DNA of 42,810 bases from Pseudomonadota bacterium (GTDB taxonomy: Bacteria; Desulfobacterota; S145-22): positions 1 through 42,810 of the forward strand of contig WGDA01000055.1 of the NCBI GenBank assembly GCA_015493505.1, in the 5' to 3' direction. This document shows, piece by piece, positions 1 through 10,656 of this stretch (position 1 is its first letter; every line of letters begins with the position of its first letter). The notes below the pieces were generated by a model. The model had not been told where the DNA came from. It searched no databases and saw nothing but the letters and a program-made list of their open reading frames with translations. The position numbers were made by a program, and so were the translations under genes.

Positions 1-1612
1 GGATAAAAGTTATTCAGCGCTGTATCCTCATGACCACCGATCCCGGGGACCTTGTCCTCGATCCCACCTGCGGCTCCGGTACCACGGCGTATGTGGCGGA
101 GCAGTGGGGCCGCCGGTGGATCACGATCGATACCTCCCGTGTGGCGCTGGCACTGGCCCGCGCCCGCCTCATGGGGGCCCGTTACCCCTATTACATCCTT
201 GCCGACAGCCGCGAAGGCCAGCTCAAGGAGGCGGAAATCACCGGCAAGGCCCCCTCCGAAGCGCCGACGCGAAACGACATCCGCCAGGGGTTCGTCTATC
301 AGCGCGTGCCCCACATCACCCTCAAGTCCATCGCCAACAACGCGGAGATCGACGTCATCTACGAGAAGTGGCAGCCAAAGGTCCAAAACGCCCTGGATCG
401 ACTCAACCGGGCCCTGCGTGGACACAAAATTCCCTTCAAGGTCACCACCGGTGGTCGGGAGGGGAAAGAGGTCATCTTCGACGCCCCGAACGACGCTACC
501 TTCACCATGCCCAGCGGCGAGGTCGTCAAGGCGTACGAACTGGTGGAATGAGAAGTGCCGCGGGAGGCCCCGGACGACTGGCCGCCGGAGGCGAGAGAAC
601 CCCTGAGGGATTTTTGGAAGGCCTGTATCGCCCGCCAGAAGGAGATCGACGCCTCCATTGCCGCCCATGCCGACTACGAATACCTCTATGACCGGCCTTA
701 CGAGGATAAAAAGAAGGTGCGGGTCGCCGGGCCGTTCACGGTAGAAAGCCTCTCACCGCACCGGGTCCTCACGGTGGATGAAGGCGACGAACTCATCGAC
801 ACGGTAAAGGATTCGGGAGACAGCGGATACGGGACGGAACGTGACTTCAATCAGATCATCCTGGAAAATCTGAAGATTGCCGGTGTTCAACAGGCTCACA
901 AGGAAGACAAGATCGACTTTCTCTCTCTGACCCCCTGGCCTGGGGAGTATATCTGCGGGGAAGGGCGCTATCTCGAAGGAAACGACGAAAACGGCGTCCA
1001 GAAGCGTGCTGCCATATTCATCGGGCCGGAATTTGGAACGGTCACGCGCCCCGATCTGGTCGCCGCCGCCCGTGAAGCGGCGGACGCCGGCTTCGACGTG
1101 CTGATCGCTTGCGCCTTCAATTACGACGCCTACGCCTCGGAGTTCGAGAAACTGGGCCGGATTCCCATCCTCAAGGCCCGAATGAACGCGGACCTGCACA
1201 TGGCGGGCGACTTGAAGGGCAAGGGCAACCTGTTCGTCATCTTTGGGGAACCGGACATCGATATCATCGAAGTGGGGGACGGTCAAATACAGGTCAAAAT
1301 CAACGGCGTGGACGTCTTTCATCCAACACCGGGGAAATCCGCAGCGACGGCGCGGACGGAATCGCCTGCTGGTTCATCGACACCGATTACAACGAGGAGA
1401 GCTTCTTCGTCCGCCACGCCTATTTCCTCGGCGTGAGCGATCCCTACAAATCCCTAAAAACTACCCTGAAGGCCGAAATCAACCTGGAGGCCTGGGAAAC
1501 CCTCTATTCCGACACCTCGCGTCCCTTCCCCAAACCCAAAGAAGGCCACATCGCCGTGAAAGTCATCAAGCACCTCGGGGACGAGGTCATGAAGGTGTTT
1601 CGGGTGAAGTAG
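1..1612 (+). pseudogene. Type III-like site-specific DNA methyltransferase, 3' portion, disrupted (5' end outside window)
   Basis: Frame open from window start; AdoMet motif '[12 protein letters not shown]'. ORFs 30-551 and 555-1436 are in the same frame, separated by one TGA (549-551, VE*EVPREAP). The C-terminus continues in another frame (ORF 1109-1612: NTGEIRSDGADGIACWFIDTDYNEESFFVRHAYF...) after an apparent 1-nt loss near 1325. Confidence 0.8.
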
Positions 1613-1617
1613 GCTGA

Positions 1618-1653
1618 TTGAAAAAAGATGACAATGGTTATATTATGATTGTC
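1618..1653 (+). promoter_or_regulatory. Sigma70-like promoter with overlapping inverted repeat
   Basis: TTGAAA (1618-1623), 17-nt spacer, TATTAT (1641-1646); perfect 6-bp inverted repeat GACAAT (1630-1635) / ATTGTC (1648-1653) flanking the -10; upstream of ORF 1690. Confidence 0.55.
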
Positions 1654-1689: not shown

Positions 1690-2316
1690 ATGCTCATCGA
1701 AAAAAGCATTGTTGTTGTGGCAGATGGTTGGAATCCTAGAATTTTTACCGCTGACTGGTTAAATACCCATACGTTTGTCAAGGATTTCGAGACAGAGCTT
1801 GTCACACCCCCTCTTTCCGTCGCCAGCTCTCCCAGATTCAAACTGATTTGCGAACCTCGAAAACTTCAACTATCTTTGAAAGATCCGGCGAATGACGGCA
1901 TAGATGAGTTAGCAAGAATTGTCAGGCCAATCGTAAAAAAATTTCCTGAAACAAAATACACTGCCTTGGGCGTCAATTTCAAAGGGCGAATCGACTTTCC
2001 TTCCGAGGAGGCGGTATTTGATTTTATCAAAAAATATGTTTCCGTCGGGGCAATTCCGGAATTTTGCAAGGAAAATGATCCTTCATTAATGGTTATTGTC
2101 CATCTCATCCGAGAGAATATTTTGGGAAGCCGTTTAACGATTAAGATGTTGCCGGCCATAGAAGCCAAATCCCACCAATACGTTCTCATTGTGGATTTTA
2201 ATTTTCACAATGACCTTAAAAAACCGGATGACATCAAAACGAGACTTGGGAACGCATCAAGAAAAGAACAAAAGAGCTTAAAGATTTTGGAGGGCCTAAA
2301 GCGTGCCTCAGACTGA
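1690..2316 (+). CDS. Hypothetical protein, gene 1 of three-gene cassette
   Basis: 208-aa ORF with CAGGAG RBS upstream; overlaps the next ORF by 14 nt. Confidence 0.75.
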   Translation: MLIEKSIVVVADGWNPRIFTADWLNTHTFVKDFETELVTPPLSVASSPRFKLICEPRKLQLSLKDPANDGIDELARIVRPIVKKFPETKYTALGVNFKGRIDFPSEEAVFDFIKKYVSVGAIPEFCKENDPSLMVIVHLIRENILGSRLTIKMLPAIEAKSHQYVLIVDFNFHNDLKKPDDIKTRLGNASRKEQKSLKILEGLKRASD

Positions 2317-3022
2317 AAGCTTTTCTTCCATAAATCATTCAATAATTCCAGTTTTATACCCATTGGGTGAGGAAACCGCATTGAAACATGAAATCAAAGA
2401 GTCCTCCCCGGCATATTCAGCAGGTTCAGTTCAGCAAAATTATAAAATTTTGATGTTAGGCCTGGACTCAAATCCTCTATTCTCGGAAACAACCGAGGAA
2501 ATCTACCCTCAAAGCAGTGTTAGTGAAACTAAGAACATACTTCTTGACGCCACCGAAAATCTTCTTGCTGATATTTTGCAACAAACTGAAGATGAATTAC
2601 AACAATTTATTGACGCACTAAAATCCATTTCAGATTATATTTCCGCTAAAGAAATACTATATGACGATAAAGAAGATCTGCTTTCGGAGTTAGAGGAAAT
2701 CGCCGAAGAGTACAGCGTTCCCAACTGGGACGGCTACGAGGCCCTTCCCATAGAACCTCAAGCCCTTGAATTAGCTAAAAAGTTCATTAACGCTTTACCA
2801 GAGGACCTCCCCCTCCCTGAAACGGCCCCTGAGCCGGATGGCTCTATTTCCCTTGACTGGATTTGGTCCAAGGATCGTGTGTTTTCCTTGAGTGTCGGCA
2901 AAACCTATGAGCTGTCCTACGCCTGGATAGACAACGAGGATCGAGGATATGGCGTTGCGAAATTTGATGGCGAAACCGTGCCTAAACGGGTAATTGATTC
3001 TATTCGTGGCTTTATGTCGTGA
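2303..3022 (+). CDS. Conserved hypothetical protein, gene 2 of three-gene cassette
   Basis: 239-aa ORF; C-terminal block NWDGYEALPIEPQALELAKKFINALPEDLPLPETAPEPDGSISLDW...SLSVG...LSYAW resembles a recurrent uncharacterised family (from memory). Confidence 0.75.
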   Translation: MPQTESFSSINHSIIPVLYPLGEETALKHEIKESSPAYSAGSVQQNYKILMLGLDSNPLFSETTEEIYPQSSVSETKNILLDATENLLADILQQTEDELQQFIDALKSISDYISAKEILYDDKEDLLSELEEIAEEYSVPNWDGYEALPIEPQALELAKKFINALPEDLPLPETAPEPDGSISLDWIWSKDRVFSLSVGKTYELSYAWIDNEDRGYGVAKFDGETVPKRVIDSIRGFMS

Positions 3023-3417
3023 GTTCCAGACTGCCATCTGGCCTTCCTGAAGCGGTTCTCGATGAGGAAGACCTTGCGCGCTTTATCACTTCCTCGAAAC
3101 AGTTCAGTACAAACGGCGTAAAAGCAGCGGCGCTTTTGCCCAACAGAAATGGGGAAACCTCCGTTTTTCGACATGGCAAGCATCCATTATCCGACCTTTG
3201 GGGTCTGGCTGCTCAAAATATCCAAGATAGAAACGTCCATGGCGCGGCTATCTTTAAGGCCAAAAGTGTCAGAAAAACGGAGCTCGAGGTTATCGCAAAA
3301 GAACCGCCGCCGCGACACGCGGACATCGTAAACTGGCCAACCGGTGCATTAGGAAAAGCAAAACAAAAACAGATAGCCCTTTTAATCGCTCGTGAAGCAG
3401 AACTGATCTTGAAGTAA
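3019..3417 (+). CDS. Conserved hypothetical protein, gene 3 of three-gene cassette
   Basis: 132-aa ORF, GTG start overlapping the previous stop (GTGA); motifs RLPSGLP, ETSVFRH, HGAA, PPPRHADIVNWP. Confidence 0.75.
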   Translation: MSSRLPSGLPEAVLDEEDLARFITSSKQFSTNGVKAAALLPNRNGETSVFRHGKHPLSDLWGLAAQNIQDRNVHGAAIFKAKSVRKTELEVIAKEPPPRHADIVNWPTGALGKAKQKQIALLIAREAELILK

Positions 3418-3423
3418 TCTGAC

Positions 3424-5502
3424 ATGCAATTTCTTATTGCCGACACTTTCACCGAAAGCCTCGCGAAGCTGACGGGAGAGGAACAAAAGGCTGTCAAAAC
3501 CACGGCCTTTGACCTGCAGATGAATCCCGCCAATCCAGGGATGAAATTCCATAAAATCGACAGGGCAAAGGACCCGAACTTCTGGTCCGTCCGGGTCAAC
3601 AACGATATTCGCATCATCGTCCATCGCACGTCTTCAAGCCTCCTCCTCTGTTACGTGGATCATCACGAAGAGGCCTACCGATGGGCGCAGAGGCGGAAAC
3701 TGGAAACGCACCCCAAAACCGGCGCGGCCCAGTTAGTGGAAATAAGGGAAACCGTTCGGGAGGTCCCTGTTTACCAGGTTACAGAGCCACATGAGAAGTT
3801 CAAGCCCGCAAAACCTCTTTTATTCACCCATGTCTCGGATGAAGAGTTATTGCAGTATGGCGTTCCACCGGAATGGCTCGACGAGGTCCGGCAGGCGGAT
3901 GAAGACAAGATTCTGGAACTGGCGGAACATCTCCCCAGTGAGGCGGCGGAGGCCTTGCTGGATATTGCCGTGGGCGTCACGCCACAGAAAACAAGGGCCG
4001 CTACTGGGACAGATCCCTTTGAGCATCCGGACGCGCAGCGCCGATTTAGGGTAATGAACAACGTCGAGGAACTCAAACAAGCCCTGGAATTCCCGTGGGA
4101 AAAATGGACAATCTTTCTGCATCCGGCCCAACGGCAATGGGTTGAGTACAATTTCAATGGCCCCGCCCGCGTTTCGGGTTCGGCCGGAACGGGAAAAACC
4201 ATCGTGGCCCTTCACCGCGCCGTCTATCTCGCACGTAAAAACCCTGAAGCGCGGGTGTTGCTTGCGACATTTTCGGATATCCTGGCGAATAGCCTCAAGA
4301 CGAAACTACGACGCCTCATCAGCAGCGCCCCCAAGATCGCTGAACGTCTGGAAGTCCACGCCATGAAAGAGATCGGCCGCAGGCTTTACGAGCTGAACAT
4401 CGAACCGGCGCATATTGCCCCAAGAAACTTGATACAGAAGCTTCTTGTTGACGCCGCGAAAAAACTCGAGGAAGAACGTTTCAGCCCTCACTTTTTAATC
4501 ACGGAATGGGAACAAGTCGTTGACGCGTGGCAGTTAAAATCATGGGAAGAGTATCGTGACGTGAAAAGACTCGGGCGTAAAACCCGCTTGCCAGAAAGCA
4601 GGCGAGTCGTGCTGTGGTCCATCTTTGAAAAGGTTCGCGCGGAGCTGAATGACCGGGGGTTGATAACCTATGCCGGCCTTTTTGACAAATTGACAATCAC
4701 CGTGAAAGAGAAAAACCTCATCCCCTTTGATTTCGCGGTCATAGACGAGGCCCAGGACATCAGCGTCGCACAGTTGCGGTTCCTGTCGGCTTTGGGGGCA
4801 GATCGGCCAAACGGCCTTTTCTTTGCCGGAGACCTCGGCCAAAGAATCTTTCAACAACCCTTTTCATGGATGACATTGGGTGTGGATATTCGTGGACGCT
4901 CACGAACCCTGAGAATCAATTACAGGACATCCCACCAAATCCGGATGCAGGCGGATCGCCTCCTACCCCCTCAAGTGTCTGACGTGGATGGGAATATTGA
5001 CGACCGGCGGGGGACTATCTCTGTTTTTAACGGTCCCGAGCCGGATATAATCATATATGACACCCAAGAGGATGAGATCGAAAGCGTTGGTCAATGGCTT
5101 TCAAAAAGAAAAAGCGAGGGGATTTTGCCACATGAAATGAGCATCTTTGTTAGATCCGAAGAGGAATTGGAGCGGGCCCGGCTGGCGGCCGAAATGTCGA
5201 AACTCCCCTATAAAATTCTCGATGAAAGCGTCACGACCATCAGCGGCCATCTCTCCATCAGCACGATGCACCTGGCCAAGGGCCTGGAATTCCGTGCCGT
5301 CGCGGTGATGGCCTGTGATGACGAGGTGATTCCCTCTCAAAAACGGATTGAAACCGTCGCGGATGACGCGGACCTTGAAGAGGTTTACAACACCGAGCGC
5401 CATCTCCTCTACGTCGCCTGCACCCGCGCCCGCGATCATCTCCTTGTCACAGGCGTCGATCCCGCATCGGAGTTTTTGGATGATATGAGGATGAAGGGTT
5501 AA
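3424..5502 (+). CDS. RelE-like N-terminal domain fused to UvrD/Rep-type superfamily 1 helicase
   Basis: N-term ~100 aa RelE/ParE-like (FWSVRVNNDIRIIVHR...LLLCYVDHHEEAYRWAQRR); Walker A GSAGTGKT; Walker B VIDEAQD; C-terminal HLLYVACTRARDHLLVTG. Confidence 0.88.
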   Translation: MQFLIADTFTESLAKLTGEEQKAVKTTAFDLQMNPANPGMKFHKIDRAKDPNFWSVRVNNDIRIIVHRTSSSLLLCYVDHHEEAYRWAQRRKLETHPKTGAAQLVEIRETVREVPVYQVTEPHEKFKPAKPLLFTHVSDEELLQYGVPPEWLDEVRQADEDKILELAEHLPSEAAEALLDIAVGVTPQKTRAATGTDPFEHPDAQRRFRVMNNVEELKQALEFPWEKWTIFLHPAQRQWVEYNFNGPARVSGSAGTGKTIVALHRAVYLARKNPEARVLLATFSDILANSLKTKLRRLISSAPKIAERLEVHAMKEIGRRLYELNIEPAHIAPRNLIQKLLVDAAKKLEEERFSPHFLITEWEQVVDAWQLKSWEEYRDVKRLGRKTRLPESRRVVLWSIFEKVRAELNDRGLITYAGLFDKLTITVKEKNLIPFDFAVIDEAQDISVAQLRFLSALGADRPNGLFFAGDLGQRIFQQPFSWMTLGVDIRGRSRTLRINYRTSHQIRMQADRLLPPQVSDVDGNIDDRRGTISVFNGPEPDIIIYDTQEDEIESVGQWLSKRKSEGILPHEMSIFVRSEEELERARLAAEMSKLPYKILDESVTTISGHLSISTMHLAKGLEFRAVAVMACDDEVIPSQKRIETVADDADLEEVYNTERHLLYVACTRARDHLLVTGVDPASEFLDDMRMKG

Positions 5503-5511
5503 AGCTAATTT

Positions 5512-6111
5512 ATGACTCTAATTGAACGGTTATTTGAATTAGCAAAAGAGGGTTTATGGGGACAAATAATTTTTATGCTTATTTGTTTACTTTTAGGTGC
5601 GTTTTTCTCAGAATTATTTCATTTTTTGTTTGTTAAGATTATAAAAAAAACATTCATACAACGTAAGTTAGTCTACTTTGTAATTTTACCGTTAATATTA
5701 TTATTTATTTTTTTTCTAATCTTTTATAATCCAAATCGAGAAATAATTACAATACCAATAACGACGGATACTTATCATGTAGGGAAAGAATACAAAAAAA
5801 ATTATCCAGTCAAAAAAGAGGGCGGATCAACAGAATATCATTTCACTGTATTTTTAAAAAGAGTGCCTTATGAGGTAACAATAGAAATTGAAACATATGA
5901 CGTAGACAATATAAATGGATGGGTAATAGTCAACAACAAGAGGATTGGAAAATTTGATGTATTCCAAAAATGGAAAAAGAACATATTTGTAGTTAAGGGG
6001 GATAATTTTAAGAAAGGGAGAAATATCATAACGATAAAATCCAATGTATGGGCTGATGGTGAAATAGAAGACTTTCTATTCCGTAATCTTAAATTGATTG
6101 TGGTGTACTAA
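5512..6111 (+). CDS. Hypothetical membrane protein (two predicted N-terminal TM segments plus C-terminal beta-rich domain)
   Basis: Hydrophobic segments IIFMLICLLLGAFFSELFHFLF and LVYFVILPLILLFIFFLIFY; AT-rich ORF 9 nt after the helicase stop. Confidence 0.75.
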   Translation: MTLIERLFELAKEGLWGQIIFMLICLLLGAFFSELFHFLFVKIIKKTFIQRKLVYFVILPLILLFIFFLIFYNPNREIITIPITTDTYHVGKEYKKNYPVKKEGGSTEYHFTVFLKRVPYEVTIEIETYDVDNINGWVIVNNKRIGKFDVFQKWKKNIFVVKGDNFKKGRNIITIKSNVWADGEIEDFLFRNLKLIVVY

Positions 6112-6112
6112 A

Positions 6113-6823
6113 ATGCTTTATTATAAATACTGTAATTCTGATGGATTCGACATCCTACTCAATTCAAGGCTTAAAACGACAAGAGCCAGCGAGTTCAACG
6201 ATCCTTTTGATTTGGCCTTTGGTATCGACTTTGAAGAAACTGGTTCGGAAAAAATCGAACCAGGACTGACGAAAAAGTGGATACTTGAGTCAATTGAGAA
6301 AACAATGGATTCTCTAAATGAAAAATTTGGAATAGCTTGTTTTTCAAGGTGTCCAGACATCATTCAAATGTGGTCTCATTATGCTGAAAATCATAGAGGA
6401 ATCGTAATAGGGCTGGAGGAAGACGAATTCGTAGGAGATAGAGCAAAACTGGTTGAAGTAAAATACAGAAAAGACATGGTTATGCTCCCTTATACGGCTT
6501 CGATACCAATGAGTAAACAGGTTGAGAAAGAATATGAGAAGAGATTTAGAATTGTTATGGGAAGAAAAGAAAGCGGCTGGAGTTACGAGGAAGAAGTTCG
6601 TATCTATGCAGAATTGAAAGAGCAAGACAAGGATGGAAATTATTATGTGGAAATTCCCCCTTCATCGATCAGAGAAATATATTTAGGCCTCAGGTCTCCT
6701 GAAACTTCAGAAATAATCGCCAGGGCGCTAAAACAGAAAAAAGAATTCCGGCACCTCAAGATTTTCAAAATGGAAAAGTCGACAAGAGAGTATAAGCTAA
6801 TCCCCCGGCTGATCAACACATAA
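6113..6823 (+). CDS. DUF2971-like protein
   Basis: MLYYKYCNSDGFDILLNSRLKTTRASEFNDPFD...GIACFSRCPDIIQMWSHYAENHRGIVIGLE is typical of DUF2971; ATG at 6113 preferred over the track start at 6098. Confidence 0.8.
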   Translation: MLYYKYCNSDGFDILLNSRLKTTRASEFNDPFDLAFGIDFEETGSEKIEPGLTKKWILESIEKTMDSLNEKFGIACFSRCPDIIQMWSHYAENHRGIVIGLEEDEFVGDRAKLVEVKYRKDMVMLPYTASIPMSKQVEKEYEKRFRIVMGRKESGWSYEEEVRIYAELKEQDKDGNYYVEIPPSSIREIYLGLRSPETSEIIARALKQKKEFRHLKIFKMEKSTREYKLIPRLINT

Positions 6824-6845
6824 ATATGTCATAAAAGGTTGAACT

Positions 6846-7886
6846 ATGGATGAAGTCACCACTTACCATCCCCCCTGCACCATCACCCCGCGTATCGTGA
6901 GAGCGATAGCGGACATCTGCGAGGTCATTGGCCGCCTCGGCGCCATGGAAGATACCACTCGGGGGCTTTGGCTTCGGCGAATCAACCGCCTCCGCACGAT
7001 TCAGGGCTCGCTTGCCATAGAGGGAAACACCCTTTCGCTGGAGCAAATCACGGCGATTCTTGAAGGCAAAAGGGTTATTGCTCCCCCACGGGAAATACAG
7101 GAAGTCCGCAACGCGATTACGGCCTATGACCGGTTGCCCCGATGGAACCCGGAAAAGGAAGCCGATTTTCTGGAGGCGCACAAGACCCTGATGCGAGGTT
7201 TGCTCGACTCCGCCGGGTGCTACCGTCAAGGCGGAGTGGGCATCATGGCACGGGAAAGGGTTATCCATGTGGCGCCATCGGCAAAGCGGGTGCCGGCGCT
7301 GATGCGTGACCTCTTTGAATGGCTGAAAGCAAGCGAACATCACCCCCTTGTCACAAGCGCGATCTTTCACTATGAGCTCGAGTTCATCCATCCCTTTGAG
7401 GACGGTAATGGACGCATTGGGCGTCTTTGGCAAACCCTGATCCTTTCCCGCTGGAACCCGATATTCACGGCGGTGCCGGTTGAAAGCATGGTTTACAAAA
7501 GGCAACAGGACTATTACGAGGCCCTGGCCCAAAGCACGAGCAAAGGGGATTCTTCCCCTTTTGTTGAATTCATGATGGCGGCAATCCAGGAGGCGCTGGC
7601 TCAATATACCACCCCCCAAGTTACCCCCCAAGTCGCACGATTGCTTTTCGTCTTGAAAGACGAAATGTCGCGGGGGGAGATTCAAGCCGCGTTGGGCCTG
7701 AAGGACCGCAAATCCTTTCGCTCCCGCTATCTCGCCCCCGCCCTCAACGCGGGTCTGATCGAGATGACCATCCCAGAGCGGCCCAACAGCCGCCTGCAAA
7801 AATACAGCCTGACCGAAAAGGGCCGGCGGTTTGTTCATGAGTTGCAGGAAAAAATAAAAATATGGAAGTGTGATGGTGTCAGATAA
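6846..7886 (+). CDS. Fic family protein with C-terminal winged-helix-like region
   Basis: Fic motif HPFEDGNGRIGR; inhibitory-type motif SLAIEGN near the N-terminus; TTPQVTPQVARLL linker then HTH-like tail. Confidence 0.92.
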   Translation: MDEVTTYHPPCTITPRIVRAIADICEVIGRLGAMEDTTRGLWLRRINRLRTIQGSLAIEGNTLSLEQITAILEGKRVIAPPREIQEVRNAITAYDRLPRWNPEKEADFLEAHKTLMRGLLDSAGCYRQGGVGIMARERVIHVAPSAKRVPALMRDLFEWLKASEHHPLVTSAIFHYELEFIHPFEDGNGRIGRLWQTLILSRWNPIFTAVPVESMVYKRQQDYYEALAQSTSKGDSSPFVEFMMAAIQEALAQYTTPQVTPQVARLLFVLKDEMSRGEIQAALGLKDRKSFRSRYLAPALNAGLIEMTIPERPNSRLQKYSLTEKGRRFVHELQEKIKIWKCDGVR

Positions 7887-7897
7887 TCAAAAACACG

Positions 7898-8521
7898 TTA
7901 CCAACTTTGGGGCTTATGAATAGATGTTCCAGGGATAGGATCAGGAAGTTGTGATGATGCAAGAACCCCTTTCCGGATACGTTTTACAAAATTTGTATAT
8001 CTCATGAGCTCTTTTGAGGGATGGGTTTTCCCTGGTATGATTAAACCAATAGTTTTTCCATGTTGTTCCTTAACAATGCGTAGCGATTCTGCCAGATCAC
8101 TGTCATTTGAAACGATCACGGCGCAGTCATATCTATCAAGCCAAGAATCATTTAAAATATGAACTGCAAGATTAACATCAGAGCCTTTTTCCTCTGTTTT
8201 TATAATTTTTACAAAACGTTGTTGTTCTGACGGTGGTTCAGCAAGAGGAGCAGAGATAATATGGCTTAGGAAATGGCCATAATAAATTGAAAGTTCGGGA
8301 ATGAACTTTTGAATAGCTCGTAAGTAGGTTTTTTGTCTAAGAGGTTGTTTGGTGTCTATTTTTCCCGACACAAGCGCTGTAAAATATTTTATGGCAAGGA
8401 TTTTATTTTTAGGATCAAGTAACTGAATGAGCAGTTTTTTGAGATCCAACCATTTGTATGGAGTATTTTTTAAGGCCCGGTAATAAAGATTGAAACCGTC
8501 GATGTAAATGTAGGTACGCAT
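7898..8521 (-). CDS. NYN domain (LabA/DUF88-type) putative nuclease
   Basis: YIYIDGFNLYYRALK..., KGSDVNLAVHILNDSWLDRYDCAVIVSNDSDLAESLRIV: NYN/PIN-like acidic motifs. Confidence 0.88.
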   Translation of the reverse strand: MRTYIYIDGFNLYYRALKNTPYKWLDLKKLLIQLLDPKNKILAIKYFTALVSGKIDTKQPLRQKTYLRAIQKFIPELSIYYGHFLSHIISAPLAEPPSEQQRFVKIIKTEEKGSDVNLAVHILNDSWLDRYDCAVIVSNDSDLAESLRIVKEQHGKTIGLIIPGKTHPSKELMRYTNFVKRIRKGVLASSQLPDPIPGTSIHKPQSW

Positions 8522-9488: not shown

Positions 9489-10268
9489 ATGGATAATTGG
9501 GGGGAAAGAATCAAAATCATGAGAGAAGAACGGGGTATGAGTCAACAAGATTTGGCAAAACTGTTGGATGTTTCACGTCCGACGATTACACAGATTGAGA
9601 AAGAAAAGAGAAAAATCACAGCCGAAGAGCTTGTTAAACTATCCAAAATATTTGACGTTTCTGTTGAAATCCTCCTGGGATTAAAACAAGAACCGGAAAT
9701 TGTCCTGCCCGACAAAAAAGATCAAAAAAATACAGTGAAACCTGCCATGAGAATTAACGTGCCCCAAAAGAACTTGACGAAATTCAAAGAAGTACTACTC
9801 TATGTTTTGAACAAGGTAGGATCAAAACCTAATATTGGAGAGACTGTACTCTACAAGCTCCTTTATTTCATCGATTTCGACTTTTACGAAAAGTATGAGG
9901 AACAATTAATCGGCGCAACCTACATTAAAAATCATTACGGCCCTACTCCCGTGGAGTTCAAAAAAATCGTTAAAAAAATGATGGGTGAGAAAGAAATCGT
10001 TAAAGTAGCAGATACCTACTTCAAATATCCACAAACAAAGTATTTACCACTGAGGCGGGCTGATCTGAGCAAGCTCATGGCCTATGAAATTGAGGTAATT
10101 GACGAGGTATTAAACAGGCTTTCAGACATGAACGCGTCTCAAATTAGTGAATATTCTCACGGCGATGTCCCTTGGCTAACCACGCCGGATCAGGAAATTA
10201 TTGAATACGAATCCGTTTTTTATAGAACACCTCCCTACTCCGTAAGGACCTATCGTGAAGACATTTAA
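9489..10268 (+). CDS. PanA-like antitoxin: XRE HTH plus Panacea (DUF4065/SocA-like) domain
   Basis: MREERGMSQQDLAKLLDVSRPTITQIEKEKRKIT (HTH) followed by KLLYFIDFDFYEKYEEQLIGATYIKNHYGPTPVEF (DUF4065). Confidence 0.88.
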   Translation: MDNWGERIKIMREERGMSQQDLAKLLDVSRPTITQIEKEKRKITAEELVKLSKIFDVSVEILLGLKQEPEIVLPDKKDQKNTVKPAMRINVPQKNLTKFKEVLLYVLNKVGSKPNIGETVLYKLLYFIDFDFYEKYEEQLIGATYIKNHYGPTPVEFKKIVKKMMGEKEIVKVADTYFKYPQTKYLPLRRADLSKLMAYEIEVIDEVLNRLSDMNASQISEYSHGDVPWLTTPDQEIIEYESVFYRTPPYSVRTYREDI

Positions 10269-10656
10269 ACATGTTACCTGTCTACCTGAATTCAAAAGTG
10301 ACTTGAAAAAATTGTCTAAAAAGTTCCGAACCTTGAAAGAGGATTTGGAAATTTTTGTTGAAAAACAGCTTTATCTCTACCACAAACTGAATGTTGATAA
10401 TAAAGGGATTGTTCCCATCTCGGGTCTTGGAATCGAAACACCACGGATTTTCAAGGCAAGGAAATTTGCCTGCAGATCTTTAAAAGGAAAAGGCGCGTTT
10501 TCCGGCATACGCGTGATTTATGCTTATTTCACTCTTGATGACAAAATAGAGCTGATCGAGATATACTTCAAAGGGGACAAGTCTAACGAAGACCGTGGAA
10601 GAATACACAAAAATTACCCAAAAAAGAGAAAACAGGTTCACACATCCCCCATTTAA
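10255..10656 (+). CDS. Putative PanT-type toxin, RelE/HigB-like
   Basis: 133-aa ORF, GTG start overlapping the antitoxin 3' end; basic, RelE-like tail (GIRVIYAYFTLDDKIELIEIYFKGDK). Confidence 0.75.
   Translation: MKTFKHVTCLPEFKSDLKKLSKKFRTLKEDLEIFVEKQLYLYHKLNVDNKGIVPISGLGIETPRIFKARKFACRSLKGKGAFSGIRVIYAYFTLDDKIELIEIYFKGDKSNEDRGRIHKNYPKKRKQVHTSPI

Follow-up and report, generated by a model that had tools for sequence, protein, structure and literature searches.

What three overlapping genes without a family name are doing between a DNA methyltransferase gene and a helicase gene is the question raised by the locus considered here, which lies near one end of a stretch of 42,810 nucleotides (the window) from a bacterium of the Desulfobacterota. 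In the first-pass annotation, made from the sequence alone, three open reading frames of 208, 239 and 132 amino acids, overlapping by 14 nt (genes 1 and 2) and by the letters GTGA (genes 2 and 3), were described as a single coupled unit with its own promoter and with no assignable motif, and were taken for a candidate defence or stress module. Frames and overlaps are as described there (Table 1), and a search of Pfam, NCBIfam and PHROG assigned none of the three genes at significant scores. The promoter is a different matter: the sigma-70-like site agrees with the consensus at 10 of 12 positions, but comparable sites are frequent nearby (six in 2.15 kb, against 2.5 ± 1.4 in shuffled sequence), and it is therefore to be regarded as a consensus match only. 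In the window gene 2 has a pI of 4.1 and gene 3 of 9.7, an acidic/basic contrast which is not general, the median pI of gene 3 across its family being 7.06 and its value often near neutral.

Table 1. Features of the three-gene cassette and of the genes on either side of it (positions in the window).
Feature	Position	Strand	Remarks
Mod DNA methyltransferase, type III-type, C-terminal part	30..1612	+	contig begins within the gene; PADLOC MTase_III, E 2.9e-65 and 2e-111
Sigma-70-like promoter match, TTGAAA-17-TATTAT	1618..1646	+	upstream of gene 1; consensus match only
Gene 1 (208 aa)	1690..2316	+	hub family 'FNPxIFxPxFL...TPxxAxGIN', without database name
Gene 1/gene 2 overlap, 14 nt	2303..2316	+	
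Gene 2 (239 aa)	2303..3022	+	variable acidic N-terminus; conserved C-terminal domain 'WDGYxAxP...EPDGxIxLxW...G'
Gene 2/gene 3 overlap, GTGA	3019..3022	+	
Gene 3 (132 aa)	3019..3417	+	proposed toxin/effector; KptA/Tpt1-like predicted model; conserved R21, S48, R51, H100, W106
RelE-like N-terminus and UvrD-type helicase	3424..5502	+	6 nt past gene 3; UvrD E 1.2e-17, HigB-like 0.012

A scan of one genome per species (85,462 species) for relatives of gene 3 returned 80 loci, distributed among deltaproteobacteria, cyanobacteria, planctomycetes, Nitrospira, Betaproteobacteria, Verrucomicrobia, Chloroflexota and other groups; in the phylum of the window a match is present in 5 of 297 genomes, the window's own included, and the four others have the order TIGR04255 (an NCBIfam subfamily), gene 2, gene 3. 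According to profile searches, a gene 2-like frame adjoins gene 3 at 77 of the 80 loci and TIGR04255 occurs at 63, while leave-one-out HMMs place the window's own proteins in the respective families (E 4.9e-46 for gene 2, 2.3e-40 for gene 3). Overlaps are found in 54 of 76 measured gene 2-gene 3 pairs and in 56 of 62 gene 1-gene 2 pairs, 33 of the latter by exactly 4 nt; these lengths, for which the first possible start codon was used, are upper bounds, and 4 nt is the commonest value. The idea of a single coupled unit is thus borne out by a trio which recurs over many phyla, gene 2 accompanying nearly every gene 3 and gene 1 most of them; neither homologues standing consistently alone in housekeeping contexts, nor a clear match to a metabolic family, nor a lack of co-occurrence was encountered. 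Several relatives (L054, L066, L073, and L081) do adjoin housekeeping genes. A tblastn search of plasmids with genes 1-3 and two gene-2 relatives gave no match, and in viral contigs nothing was found with the gene-3 profile (one scan) or with one gene-1 relative.

The first position of the cassette is occupied by two families. TIGR04255 supplies gene 1 at most of the 80 loci; a different, nameless family is present in the window and at six loci (L034, L037, L039, L041, L043, and L086), has further members in 13 other genomes of the phylum, and includes the window's protein together with the relatives from L034, L043, L086 and L096-L104 (leave-one-out HMM, E 3.7e-19). The window's gene 1 has no NCBIfam match at E ≤ 1 and so falls short of the TIGR04255 cut-off, and a search of the window's own genome for TIGR04255 returned none. 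A homologous relationship between the two families obtained no support from profile comparison (hhalign probability 2%), both hhalign runs aligning the same helix-strand region. In a tree of genes 2 and 3 the window is nested, with a support of 0.998, in a clade whose other members all have TIGR04255, and its gene-1 family sits at three separate places. At four loci (L036, L038, L046, and L050) no gene 1 was found upstream of the gene 2-gene 3 pair, indicating that gene 1 may not be required, and at one (L048) genes 1 and 2 are naturally fused. Given the two families, the three places of the window's family in the tree, the loci lacking gene 1 and the fusion, gene 1 is exchangeable, and what stays constant is the pair formed by genes 2 and 3; the suggestion of recurrent partners accordingly holds for genes 2 and 3, but not for a fixed trio, whose first member is exchanged or missing. 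The window's gene 1 being divergent, the family was modelled on the relative from L104 (AF2, pLDDT 91.4); the best fold matches of this model are AdoMetDC (E 4.5e-4 but TM 0.32) and Bet v 1-like proteins, with TM near 0.3. A putative role as a sensor or chaperone-like hub is proposed for gene 1.

The C-terminal block of gene 2, already singled out as conserved-looking, proved to be so in 68 relatives, in which W186 is invariant and W142, D143, G144, P166, P172, G180, S197, A207, and G211 are conserved at 90% or more. The same domain weakly matches the C-terminal region of PDC-M32A, a phage-defence candidate of PADLOC (E 5.8e-5 in the window; below 0.01 in 42 of the 68 relatives); only about 70 of the 375 profile positions are matched, however, and the window's genes 1 and 3 have no PADLOC match. 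One of the aligned gene 2 relatives matches PADLOC mad1 (1.3e-5). Gene 2 is proposed to be a putative inhibitor or adaptor of gene 3.

As to gene 3, of the three short motifs read as invariant in the first-pass annotation, RLPSGLP is not; in SVFRH, S48 is invariant and V49 and R51 are conserved at 93-95%, while in PPPRHADIVNWP the invariant residues are H100, I103, and W106, to which R21 and P41 elsewhere in the protein are to be added. A Foldseek search with the AF2 model (pLDDT 94.9), of the kind recommended at the outset, puts KptA at the top of the PDB matches, but with weak scores: the first four are Thermococcus KptA (probability 0.60-0.89, E 0.19-0.33; E 0.19-0.20 at the top, with probability 0.89 and TMq 0.49 for 9ldi), Runella Tpt1 is at rank 18, and E values range from 0.19 to 1.3 overall; in a viral library the RNA 2'-phosphotransferase of a Neodiprion virus (a baculovirus) is at rank 25 (E 0.99). 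KptA, an enzyme of the ADP-ribosyltransferase superfamily (PMC9503650), and the related RNA 2'-phosphotransferase Tpt1 are thus the solved structures whose fold best matches gene 3, but homology is not confirmed by profiles, hhalign giving a probability of 0.13% against KptA ORFs from the phylum. Taken together, the weak fold match and the null profile comparison amount to a lead on fold rather than to family membership; judging from the predicted model, gene 3 may be an enzyme of the ADP-ribosyltransferase fold, its R...S...R...H set being unusual.

Around TIGR04255, which occurs in 22 of 247 genomes examined in the phylum, the layout of hub, middle gene and last gene is repeated with differing last genes: HEPN (L105, L114 and, by reading, L118), PemK/MazF (L110), DUF7689 (L109), a short HicA-like protein (by reading), and distant relatives of gene 3, while in L107 a PIN protein follows TIGR04255. 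The window's gene-1 family in turn heads sets ending in HEPN (L098), in a metallo-beta-lactamase (L102), and again in distant gene-3 relatives; the distant family aligns with gene 3 over its full length with an R, an S, and an H kept (hhalign probability 81). Behind the hub, the two genes of these sister sets are replaced by other pairs, known toxin families among them. In L087, a PIN-like ORF comes after a protein which resembles the N-terminal part of PDC-M32A and lacks the C-terminal domain of gene 2.

The setting of the cassette in the window is a restriction operon, in agreement with the defence-type surroundings proposed for it earlier. The upstream methyltransferase is a type III-type Mod, represented by its C-terminal part and broken twice: at 549-551 an in-frame TGA replaces the Trp codon of the relative L113, and near 1340 there is a frame change; mod reads as a pseudogene, unless the TGA and the frame change are assembly errors. 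As for the supposed RelE-helicase fusion, the UvrD-type helicase stands, whereas the RelE-like N-terminus scores below the Pfam cut-off; this gene belongs to the host operon and is outside the trio. The window's Mod is 55-68% identical to that of L074, L077, and L183-L185, and its helicase 58-67% identical to those which follow Mod in L077, L074, L183, and L184. Both L074 and L077 have the cassette flanked by an intact Mod frame on one side and by the window's helicase on the other (62-67% identity over the regions compared); among the 80 loci RelE-UvrD is otherwise seen as fragments in L066 and L079, most loci having no such operon. The Mod part and the helicase resemble plasmid operons composed of a BPTD_3080 endonuclease, Mod and helicase; a BPTD_3080 endonuclease was not found in the window's own genome assembly, in which the contig begins inside mod. 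On these plasmids the slot between mod and helicase is empty in Pseudomonas avellanae, holds one other gene in Gemmobacter and two in Rhizobium, and hence appears as a place for carried cargo. These slot genes (L184:6411-6989 and L185:5795-6991, respectively) have no NCBIfam match, the first being GIY-YIG-like by eye. The RelE-like/UvrD helicase has 43 plasmid relatives, 42 of which cover 80% or more of its length; in three of the four inspected it comes after a Mod gene, and its neighbours in the fourth (Qipengyuania, L186) are a RecB-like nuclease and a DUF4011 protein.

As to enrichment near defence genes, which had been recommended as a check, 163 PADLOC models are matched for 149 flanking ORFs against 22 for 130 control ORFs (80 loci), a crude count in which one methyltransferase or specificity subunit matches many models; several copies lie among housekeeping genes. 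Placement in a restriction locus is seen in the window, L074, L077 and, by reading, L083 and L085. Farther along the window (6098-8521), genes for a DUF2971 protein (PDC-S31, E 5.2e-38), a Fic protein (SoFic, E 1e-42) and an NYN-domain protein (HEC-09, E 7.4e-40) make this stretch rich in defence candidates; at 9489-10656 an HTH protein with a long C-terminal domain and an overlapping ORF of 133 aa look by eye like a toxin-antitoxin pair.

The reading which we favour, and consider probable, is that the cassette is a tripartite module of the toxin-antitoxin type, made up of an effector (gene 3), the partner or inhibitor of that effector (gene 2) and an exchangeable hub or sensor (gene 1), toxin and inhibitor being assigned by gene position and co-inheritance. 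Gene 3 would be the toxin, possibly an ADP-ribosyltransferase-fold enzyme; the acidic gene 2, nearly always at its side, would keep it inactive through the conserved C-terminal domain; the gene 1 hub would stabilise the complex of the two and react to infection or stress, and the loss of its interaction would free gene 3, leading to a stop of growth or to abortive infection. The whole would be cargo between mod and relE-uvrD of the restriction operon, a setting which suggests a candidate anti-phage or stress module. That these roles are reversed, gene 1 or 2 being toxic and gene 3 an inhibitor or a structural subunit, is very unlikely: the weak enzyme assignment of gene 3 leaves room for it, yet known toxin families (HEPN, PemK/MazF) hold the position of gene 3 in the sister cassettes, and gene 3 is small and conserved with the invariant polar residues R21, S48, and H100.

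Were the three proteins instead accessories of the restriction operon, with a regulatory or assisting role towards Mod and helicase such as the modification of a restriction subunit, their location between the mod and relE-uvrD genes of the window, of L074 and of L077, in the window 6 nt before the helicase gene, would be readily explained; most of the 80 loci, however, have no such operon, and the plasmid operons have an empty slot in Pseudomonas and unrelated genes there on other plasmids, making this explanation improbable. Unlikely, too, is a toxin-antitoxin module serving stress or persistence, or a selfish cargo, with no anti-phage role, with which the sporadic spread over many phyla, the copies adjoining housekeeping genes and the lack of a viral-contig copy in the single gene-3 profile scan would agree; the repeated placement in restriction loci and the greater number of PADLOC models in the flanks than among control ORFs (by that crude count) argue against it.

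The favoured tripartite module invites comparison with the toxin-antitoxin-chaperone (TAC) systems, among which CmdTAC combines an ADP-ribosyltransferase toxin, an antitoxin, and a chaperone sensing the phage capsid (PMC11618068). Both consist of three adjacent genes; the CmdTAC toxin is an ADP-ribosyltransferase, as gene 3 may be if its model is a guide; in both a common third component is joined to different toxin families, the gene-1 families apparently adjoining several unrelated ones (HEPN, PemK/MazF, PIN, metallo-beta-lactamase); and release of the toxin once the third component is engaged is proposed. The differences are that genes 2 and 3 belong to no named family and that gene 1, whose chaperone and sensing roles are putative, is not detectably SecB-like: no SecB was present in a PDB sequence search with the window's gene-1 family or among the 50 Foldseek matches listed for the L104 model. 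Since the search for a SecB-like component found none, the cassette is not classed as a TAC system. TIGR04255, which is gene 1 of most related cassettes and heads the HEPN, PIN, and PemK sister sets, differs from the window's gene 1 by the failed match and profile comparison described above; it has no known function and is not named in any paper of the literature searched. We tentatively propose, with more doubt than conviction, that a large, undescribed class of the tripartite toxin-antitoxin type is built around TIGR04255 and the window's gene-1 family as hubs, a single sensor/chaperone-like protein being joined to effectors of at least five classes, and that gene 3 represents a new clade of ADP-ribosyltransferase-fold toxins.

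That TIGR04255 and a second gene-1 family head cassettes whose last genes come from known toxin families gives a widespread family of unknown function a direct, testable role, and the layout of these cassettes points to a further architecture beside the SecB-based toxin-antitoxin-chaperone systems; the slot between mod and helicase, empty or differently filled in related operons, shows how modules of this sort are carried.
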